Origin: Aggregicoccus sp. 17bor-14
GTDB lineage: Bacteria > Myxococcota > Myxococcia > Myxococcales > Myxococcaceae
DNA length: 64,000 nt
Reading direction: 5' to 3'
Assembly (NCBI RefSeq): GCF_009659535.1
Contig: NZ_VJZZ01000005.1
Location: 62,001-126,000 of the forward strand
Below the pieces are notes generated by a model that was not told the origin of the DNA, made no database searches, and saw only the letters and a program-made list of their open reading frames with translations. Position numbers and translations under genes: made by a program. Positions 19,118 to 21,367 of this stretch are shown piece by piece. Position 1 is the stretch's first letter; every line of letters begins with the position of its first letter.

Positions 19118-20287
19118 ATGCGAAACCTTGCAAGAGCGGTCGCTGTCGTGCTGGGCCTGAGCTCTACCCTCGCAGGCGCCACGAAGATTCCGCTGGGCAC
19201 CGAGGGCCAGGCGCTCACCGTGAACTTCCAGCTGCAGACCTGGGCCGGCCTCACCCAGGATGCGAACCCGGCCGGAGACGGGCTGGGCTACGACTTCCGC
19301 CTGCGCCGCGTGCGCGCGGTCATCAGCGCGGAGCCCACGGACAAGTGGGCCTTCCTGCTGCAGCTGGATGCCGCGAACTTCGGCACCGGCCAGGACTACA
19401 GCCCGCGCTTCCTGCCGCAGGACGCGTGGGTGAGCTACTCGCCCACGGGGCGCAGCGCGAAGAACGTGTTCATGGTGGACGCGGGCTTCCTGCTCGTGCC
19501 GCTCAGCCGCCAGGCGCTCTCGAGCACCACCAGCTTCACCACCATCGACGTGCACCTGGACGCGGTGCGCGGCTTCCGCGAGGGCCCGGGCATCCGCGAC
19601 CTCGGCGTGCAGGTGCGCGGCTGGGCGCTGGACAAGAAGATCGGCTACCGCGGCGGCATCTACCGCGGCGTGACGGGCACCCAGGGTGACCTCTCCGCGG
19701 CCAACCCGCGCGCGGGCCTCAACCCCAGCTCCCACCCGCGCCTCGGCGGCTTCGTGAACTTCAACATCCTGGGCACCGAGGAGGGCAACTGGCTCTACCA
19801 GGGCATCTACTTCCAGGAGAAGCCGGTGGTGAGCGTGGGCGTGGGCGGCGGCTACCAGTCCAAGGCGGTGCGCGGCCCCAGCGGCCTCACCGATACCCGC
19901 GTCTTCTCCGGCGACTTCTTCGCGGACCTCCCCACGGGCGCGGAGGGCGAGGGCGTGGTCCACGCCACCGCCTACCGCAATGACTTCGGCGGCGGCTCGG
20001 CCAACACCGGCTGGGGCTACTTCGTGGACGCGGGCTACCGCTTCGGGTTCGTGATGCCCTACGCGTCCTACGAGGGCTTCAACGCGGACAGCTGCCCGGA
20101 CGGGCTCGTCGCGCCGGCCTGCACCGCGGACACCCAGAACAGCAGCATCATCAAGGCGGGCCTGCACTTCTACATCAACAAGAACGCGAACCACATCGAC
20201 GTGGAGTACGCGAACGCCCGCAGCCTCAAGCCGAGCGACGCGGACCGCGTGAACTCCGTGCTCGTGCAGTGGAACACGGTGTTCTAG
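19118..20287 (+). CDS. Outer-membrane porin (phosphate-selective porin O/P-like)
   Basis: A 389-residue protein with a Sec signal (about 1-21) followed by many alternating amphipathic beta strands, such as FRLRRVRAVISAEPTDKWAFLLQLD, typical of the OprO/P-like porin fold, and an aromatic C-terminal Phe as in barrel proteins. It closes the transport cluster: an outer-membrane route supplying the periplasmic binding proteins is a plausible role (inference). A terminator hairpin with a T-run follows. The substrate is not predictable. Confidence 0.85.
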   Translation: MRNLARAVAVVLGLSSTLAGATKIPLGTEGQALTVNFQLQTWAGLTQDANPAGDGLGYDFRLRRVRAVISAEPTDKWAFLLQLDAANFGTGQDYSPRFLPQDAWVSYSPTGRSAKNVFMVDAGFLLVPLSRQALSSTTSFTTIDVHLDAVRGFREGPGIRDLGVQVRGWALDKKIGYRGGIYRGVTGTQGDLSAANPRAGLNPSSHPRLGGFVNFNILGTEEGNWLYQGIYFQEKPVVSVGVGGGYQSKAVRGPSGLTDTRVFSGDFFADLPTGAEGEGVVHATAYRNDFGGGSANTGWGYFVDAGYRFGFVMPYASYEGFNADSCPDGLVAPACTADTQNSSIIKAGLHFYINKNANHIDVEYANARSLKPSDADRVNSVLVQWNTVF

Positions 20288-20312
20288 GCCTCGGCTGACA
20301 CGCTGGAAACAC

Positions 20313-20353
20313 GAGGGGCGCGGTGCCTTCGCGGGCGCCGCGCCCTTCGTTTT
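20313..20353 (+). terminator. Rho-independent-type terminator after the porin
   Basis: A 15-bp stem with two wobble or mismatch positions (GAGGGGCGCGGTGCC / GGCGCCGCGCCCTTC), a 6-nt loop and a following GTTTT lie 25 nt after the porin stop. It terminates the transport operon. Confidence 0.65.
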
Positions 20354-20801
20354 GAAGCACGCGACGCCGCGACGCTTCAGGGGTTCGCGAGAGTGGCGCG
20401 AGGGGCACGGCCTCGAGAAGGAGAGGCCGGGAGGGAACGGGGCTGCTCCGAGTGGGAGAGGCCGTCCACGACGCGTGGACGGCTGTCTCGAAAAGAGACG
20501 CCCCTCCCGGGCGCGGAAGGGCGCGTGATGCAAAAACGTAAAATCCTATTTTACGTTTTTGCGCGACGCAGGCCGCCGCTCCCGAGCGGGGACACACGCA
20601 GAGTGAAGTGCTCCGCTCCGTGTCTCCCCTGCGCGCGGCGCACTGGCAGCGCCCTCCCGCGAGGAGCCGAAGCGCTCCGTCACCCTTCCGGTTCTGACGC
20701 CCCTTCAGGCTGGCGCAACGACACAGCTCGGATCCGAGGCAGGCGAGCTCTCGGCGGTAGAGCTCACGCTGCGCCGATGCCAGCCGCCCCGCTCGACGGC
20801 C
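20354..20801. other. Non-coding, strongly structured intergenic region
   Basis: I found no convincing gene in this stretch. It holds three adjacent stem-loops: a perfect 10-bp repeat (20461-20470 / 20474-20483), a 5-bp repeat around GAAAA (20485-20499) and a perfect 15-bp AT-rich palindrome (20528-20560). Together with the upstream terminator they make a compact structured block that could encode a small RNA or carry regulatory sites. The possible ORFs here have shadow-like composition and no ribosome binding site. Confidence 0.45.
20528..20560. repeat. Perfect 15-bp AT-rich inverted repeat
   Basis: GCAAAAACGTAAAAT, a 3-nt CCT spacer and the exact reverse complement ATTTTACGTTTTTGC. Only 5 of 15 positions per arm are G or C, in a genome region far richer in GC. 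The composition suits a protein-binding operator or a transferred fragment, not a normal GC-rich terminator. Confidence 0.85.
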
Positions 20802-21300
20802 TCAGGCGTCGAGCACCTGCTGGTACGCGCGAAGGTCCGCCTCGCTGAAGAGCACCACCGTCACCCGCTCGAGCTGCGGCAGGCGCTCGAGTCCCGCCCG
20901 CAGCTCGCGCAGCGCCACGGGCGCCGCAAGCGCGATCGGATAGCCGTAGGCGCCTGTGGAAATGGATGGGAAGGCCAGCGTACGCAGGCCGTGCACCCGC
21001 GCGAGCTCGAGCGCGTTGCGGTAGCAGCTCGCGAGCAGCTCGGGCTCTCCGGCCTCGCCGCCCCACCACGTGGATGACGTGATGCGCCGGGAGCCGGTAG
21101 CCGCGGGTGAGGCGCGCCTCGCCCGTGGGGCAGCGGCCCAGGCTGCGGCACTCCGCGAGCAGCTCCGGTCCGGCCGCGCGGTGGATGGCACCGTCGACCC
21201 CGCCGCCGCCGCTCAGGGCGGAGTTCGCTGCGTTCACGATGGCATCCACCGCCAGCGTGGTGAGGTCTCCGCGCAGCAGGTGCAGCCGCTCCTCGCCCAT
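20802..21300 (-). pseudogene. Frameshifted macro-domain (ADP-ribose-binding/deacetylase) gene
   Basis: Read from the ATG at 21300, the first ~80 residues are a macro domain: [20 protein letters not shown], the [10 protein letters not shown] catalytic loop, and [21 protein letters not shown]. Reading then has to change frame near 21055-21072. The second frame continues [21 protein letters not shown] and the conserved [12 protein letters not shown] to a stop at 20802. Family members normally have a VGP-x-W linker at this point, and it is missing, as if about 10 nt were lost. The gene is either recently inactivated or the sequence has an error. Intact members hydrolyse O-acetyl-ADP-ribose or remove ADP-ribose from proteins. 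Confidence 0.8.
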
Positions 21301-21367
21301 CGCAGCGCTCCCTTCGGAACCGAGGGCCGGAGCGCCAGCGCGCTCCGGCCTCACCCGCGTGCGCGGA

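Follow-up and report, generated by a model that had tools for sequence, protein, structure and literature searches.

A dispersed repeat of palindromic modules with a constrained AT-rich core in Aggregicoccus sp. 17bor-14

The locus and the modules of the repeat

The window, which is the whole 64-kb stretch of DNA analysed here, contains a long gap 3' of a gene (19118-20287) that a preliminary description called a porin, a label without Pfam backing since the gene matched none of the families (0). The stop codon of this gene lies at 20285-20287 and the next open reading frame, on the minus strand, ends at 20802 or 20764, in agreement with the earlier statement that no gene is found for more than 400 bp. 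The macro-domain gene that adjoins the gap (20764-21354, minus strand) is split across two reading frames, positions 1-77 of the Pfam Macro profile being matched in one frame and 65-118 in the other; the split is a frameshift or a sequencing error.

The gap holds a perfect AT-rich palindrome, GCAAAAACGTAAAAT-CCT-ATTTTACGTTTTTGC, exactly as first described, with 15-bp arms around 3 bp. An imperfect inverted repeat of 91 bp (Table 1), at whose centre it lies, ranks first of 13 in an inverted-repeat scan of the whole window, run with a 12-base seed and arms at most 20 bp apart. In DNA folding, a 101-nt stretch around the palindrome reached z = -5.5 and was equalled by 0 of 200 shuffles. The palindrome had been reported as the last of a cluster of four stem-loops. 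All four exist, the others being the hairpins at 20313-20353, 20461-20483 and 20485-20499, but they do not make up one unit, as the terminator-like hairpin at 20313-20353 lies outside the repeated element. A further hairpin, at 20409-20428, was missing from that list.

The element is present in the window in its short form and reaches up to 498 bp in copies with extra middle hairpins. Nearly all copies share one order of modules, in which conserved left and right modules enclose a variable middle made of these extra hairpins. In copies with an inserted middle, the right module appears as a separate BLAST match (query 320-405). In the 24 copies that possess a left module, the shared sequence begins about 150 bp left of the core, or about 172-175 bp in the two of them that carry an inserted palindrome; the right end differs among copies. 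Inspection of the copy ends revealed no clean terminal inverted repeats, and the complementarity of the ends in the consensus fold is imperfect. Among the copies of this genome no longer, gene-bearing form was found, 498 bp being the maximum when one diverged copy (L019) is set aside. L019, with its diverged left side, was omitted from alignment A1 and from the full alignment, and L032, near-identical to L026, from alignments A1 and A2.

Table 1. Parts of the repeat in the window, with their positions and basis
Feature	Position	Strand	Basis and remarks
Whole repeat, short form (319 bp)	20386-20704	+	BLAST of 20300-20780 against own genome
Profile matches to the element	20382-20613 and 20618-20721	+	Conserved bases stretch slightly past both ends (about 20380 and 20721)
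Left-end motif CGCGAGAGTGGCGCGAG(G)	20386-20403	+	21 of 25 copies at most 1 mismatch from an 18-base pattern
Hairpin GGCCTCGAGAAGGAGAGGCC	20409-20428	+	Sequence; conserved in alignment A1
Hairpin with 10-nt arms	20461-20483	+	Sequence, alignment; L022 and L028 bear added palindromic sequence here
Hairpin GTCTC-GAAAA-GAGAC	20485-20499	+	Sequence, alignment
Imperfect inverted repeat, 91 bp, surrounding the core	20501-20591	+	44-nt arms, 75% complementary, 3-nt spacer
33-bp AT-rich core palindrome, 15-3-15	20530-20562	+	Most conserved part; 24 sites and one decayed copy
Conserved stretch after the core, ending AGAGTGAAG; variable middle comes next	20592-20608	+	Alignment
Right module, consensus with GTGTCACCCCTGAGCG and CACCCTTCCGGTCCTGACGCCCC	20619-20704	+	BLAST matches, alignment, lone relic

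Copies in the genome and host range

Recurrence of the 15-bp arm was the test that the preliminary description had set for itself, and the arm does recur. With at most two mismatches, it is found 49 times in the genome (6.92 Mb, 38 contigs), and 48 of these matches pair as 24 sites whose arms stand 3 bp apart, leaving one lone arm at C6:383888. The 25-bp centre of the palindrome, with at most three mismatches, gave the same 24 sites, and its reversed control gave none. The lone arm belongs to an element that is complete except for the decay of its core, which brings the copies to 25. Whole-element BLAST returned the same copies and one relic of the right module (C2:241057-241134); 40 of 176 candidates were scored, and weak relics may have been missed by whole-genome searches limited in this way. 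The copy on C11 (L019) has kept the core and some surrounding sequence and has lost the left module. An 18-base pattern of the left end, which is independent of the core and offsets the discovery of copies through it, was found genome-wide with at most one mismatch only at 21 copies already known, and with two mismatches at two other places. Apart from these, a lone left-end-like 18-mer with three mismatches (G000:C7:255795-255812) is identical to the left end of L030 and lies about 140-160 bp past the right end of the copy on C7; it is perhaps a second relic.

The copies sit in unrelated surroundings. In an all-versus-all comparison, similarity stops outside the element save in a few short pairs. 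For instance, the copies on C18 and at C24:19 share 98.3% identity over 458 bp, with abrupt ends and unrelated flanks on both sides. A target-site duplication was not detected in 24 copies, the mean longest word shared by a copy's own flanks being 5.46 against 5.65 for mismatched flanks, a comparison limited by the uncertain right end of the element. Insertion at terminators was considered and rejected: judged by eye, only the window's copy, among the 25, has a left flank in which a hairpin precedes a run of T.

Outside this genome the repeat was not encountered. At a tolerance of two mismatches the core was absent from all 95 other family genomes, and at three from all 144 others in the order; a 230-position sequence profile (R1) matched none of 91 other genomes under strict filters. 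In the same way, blastn against plasmids and phages gave no match and a pattern scan of IMG/VR none. Weak BLAST hits in four relatives did not fit the element profile and were judged to be due to chance. Titles of the literature on repetitive palindromes, MITEs and repetitive elements in Myxococcus and myxobacteria yielded no account of the repeat; a Myxococcus repeat named RMX was reportedly described in 1991.

The exact 25-bp centre does occur in the GTDB collection, in 14 stretches from 9 genomes that are gammaproteobacterial, proteobacterial and clostridial metagenome assemblies. Homology is not claimed for these matches; what they have in common is mostly A/T runs around a few bases. In gammaproteobacteria, the centre is one hairpin of a different multi-hairpin repeat. 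Such a repeat, with ends like TTAAGGAAGCTCTGA, was seen in gammaproteobacterial and proteobacterial metagenome genomes (L063-L067, L069, L071, L072, L074, L075, L091). Its second hairpin resembles the core, at 22 places with at most three mismatches in one genome, and its arms vary on both sides. The clostridial stretches (L068, L070, L073) have a cloverleaf-like layout in which an outer stem, GGTGAAAATGC/GCATTTTCACC, encloses three hairpins, one of which fits the core pattern.

Constraint on the core and placement of the copies

The core is far less variable than the sequence around it. In 23 aligned copies, and with core position 8 set aside, 12 of 736 alignment cells are changed (1.6%), against 8.5% of positions outside the core (9.9% in the 29-bp arms and 7.5% in the leading part). 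The difference is also seen at A/T consensus sites alone, with changes in 12 of 529 cells in the core and 116 of 1126 outside. The five copies with the greatest divergence elsewhere (14.8%) show 4 changes in the core, against an expectation of 23.7. Probabilities attached to this constraint serve as a guide only since the copies are related. The palindrome itself is perfect in only 6 of the 25 copies. Position 8 exists in two states, C or G, and is unpaired in 15 copies, 14 of which carry a left-arm G without a matching change in the right arm, the other having a right-arm change. The constraint, which extends to the most diverged copies, argues that the core is probably a protein-binding site. 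Because diverged copies have retained it, a protein would still be using the resident copies, or the copies would still be exchanged.

A multi-copy structured RNA, regulatory or acting in trans, could also be encoded by the element, as the first reading had suggested in proposing a small RNA. The predicted folding is strong on both strands (z = -4.65 on the plus and -5.94 on the minus strand) and the ends of the element can pair in the consensus fold; palindromes, however, fold on either strand anyway. In a strand-neutral structure, chosen with G-U pairs disallowed, the plus strand has 73 G-T and 77 A-C cells and the minus strand 85 and 73, the two kinds being equally common. The short-range structure contains 37 G-T and 22 A-C cells, with changes on both sides in one pair only. 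Moreover, the commonest core variant, that of position 8, breaks the stem and is left unrepaired. A conserved RNA is therefore not supported, almost no compensatory changes being found among the copies. Rfam, searched with the window region and 20 of the 25 copies, gave no match that came near a gathering score, and most of the matches returned were to eukaryotic microRNAs. The proposal of a small RNA thus finds neither an Rfam family, nor more than one compensatory pair, nor a strand bias in the strand-neutral test, and an RNA reading of the element is improbable. A match to group II intron domain 5 at 20661-20697 (E = 0.09) was rejected, as it is far below the gathering score and absent from the 20 copies.

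All 25 elements are intergenic according to a codon-based gene caller, and they favour the space between convergent genes. Such gaps harbour 11 of the 25 elements as compared with 34 of 182 other neighbouring gene pairs from the same loci (Fisher p = 0.008); when only gaps of at least 100 bp are considered, the figures are 11 of 25 and 3 of 65 (p = 2e-5). Overall, 31 of the 50 flanking gene ends are 3' ends and 5 of the 25 copies lie between divergent genes. This placement bears on the idea that the core is the operator of a regulon bound by one transcription factor. The 15-3-15 symmetry is operator-like, the core is constrained, and three LysR regulators and three short-chain dehydrogenases are among the genes directly left of copies. 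Yet an operator would not be expected mostly at 3' ends of genes, nor inside a 300-500 bp repeat around each site, and the 50 flanking genes are functionally mixed. A regulon operator is accordingly very unlikely. With the core constrained, the placement mostly 3' of genes and no evident regulon, the operator first proposed survives only as a general protein-binding site. In a local profile search, relatives of the LysR and dehydrogenase genes were found among 0 of 308 genes of contigs devoid of the element, which may be a mere matter of regional gene content. Finally, the unusual transcription end that had been another suggestion fits poorly with a core stem that is AT-rich and has its T run inside the stem.

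Relation to known repeats and distribution along the chromosome

MITEs such as Correia and RUP are short, non-coding, dispersed elements without a gene of their own. The present repeat is likewise short, non-coding and multi-copy at unrelated sites, and it differs from them in having no clear terminal inverted repeats, no detected target duplication and no parent transposon found with the left-end pattern at up to one mismatch. With REP/BIME sequences and their RAYT transposases it shares extragenic palindromes and a mosaic arrangement. However, in a case study (PMC2817692) the palindromes of REP are GC-rich and bear a GT(A/G)G head, whereas the present core is AT-rich. The transposase search of the genome covered the Y1 family (PF01797) and gave 0 matches, 5 of 14 control genomes being positive.

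The repeat behaves like BOX of Streptococcus pneumoniae, for which PMC3049150 describes conserved end modules, a variable number of middle modules, abundant hairpins and an over-representation between convergent genes, all of which apply here; this likeness is one of arrangement and placement. BOX differs in its number of copies, 125 against about 25, and in the present repeat a single core palindrome stands out by its much stronger conservation. In the same paper, the convergent bias of BOX, RUP and SPRITE is taken to hint that such elements may be mobile and parasitic.

Taken together, the sequence at this locus is likely a lineage-specific, non-coding and non-autonomous dispersed repeat built from palindromic modules and comparable in function with BOX elements or MITEs. 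Of the four options offered at first, a remnant of transferred DNA came closest, inasmuch as a dispersed repeat was found. The repeat is of a familiar kind and ordinary in its class; its AT-rich core is unusually constrained. It would have spread by movement or copying, with the protein supplied in trans. The AT-rich core, at the tip of the 91-bp inverted repeat, should melt or extrude first, and a DNA-binding protein may act there, be it the one that mobilises the element or one of the host that now uses the resident copies. The accumulation of copies 3' of genes is proposed to arise because insertions there are the least harmful.

A host protein could also be the main actor, the 33-bp palindrome being a chromosome-organising site for a protein of the nucleoid or of division, in the manner of Noc or SlmA, and the repeat the mere vehicle of its spread. 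Retention of the core even in diverged copies is consistent with this. Like Noc and SlmA sites, the present ones are tens of palindromes, and they may likewise be scarce near the terminus. We know of no Noc or SlmA sites that are parts of 300-500 bp repeats, as is the case for the present core. Noc sites are short palindromes of 14 bp, and the palindromes of both Noc and SlmA are rare in the terminus region (PMC4726725).

The copies are unevenly spread over the contigs (chi-square simulation, p = 0.012), and C1, C4, C8 and C9, which together make up 2.05 Mb, have 0 copies (p = 0.014 for the element-free length among contigs of at least 180 kb). These contigs were, however, contrasted only after the counts had been seen. 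On C14, four parS-like sites lie within 630 bp (G000:C14:53240-53868) and the copy on this contig is about 53 kb away; the parS pattern, a mark of the origin side, places this contig on that side of the genome. A dif-like pattern was not found and gave no location for the terminus in this genome.

Distances from the origin were obtained by mapping genes to 100 sampled stretches of G062, a complete relative in which the skew indicates an origin at 0 and a terminus close to 4.5 Mb. Each unit received one placement, terminus-side ones included, which had to be backed by two genes or by a single hit with 65% identity or more; the weaker single hits of L022, L025 and L030 were excluded by this rule. 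Positions were obtained in this way for 10 of 25 element loci, with C5:82 represented by the window, and for 13 of 19 control stretches. The placed element loci have a median distance of 0.75 Mb from the origin against 2.57 Mb for stretches of element-free contigs (p = 0.010), but the contrast is not significant at the level of contigs (p = 0.15) and several placements depend on one gene. In addition, the element loci C2:438 and C24:83 map near the terminus, and the element-free C13 and one C9 stretch near the origin. One C1 stretch gave a six-gene cluster at 4.8 Mb together with a two-gene cluster at 0.65 Mb. The orientation of the elements shows no tie to GC skew, and the absence of the sites from all examined relatives is odd for a core cell-cycle system.

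The uneven chromosomal placement is thus a tentative lead only, and a chromosome-organising site that would account for the repeat is unlikely. There is a slim chance that both views meet, a mobile hairpin repeat having dispersed the 33-bp palindrome and the host having since adopted it as a landmark, for the chromosome or for division, on the origin side. Such a landmark would, with equally slight probability, be a young, lineage-specific counterpart of the Noc and SlmA site sets, born of a selfish repeat.

If the reading as a dispersed mobile repeat is true, this would add a repeat family, seen in 1 of 145 examined genomes of the order. Its roughly 25 copies would serve as natural replicates of a single sequence, from which the constrained part can be read off directly, and the core kept in otherwise decayed copies would be a testable sign of use by a protein. 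Should the uneven placement hold on a finished chromosome, the repeat would show how a selfish sequence can seed a chromosomal address system.
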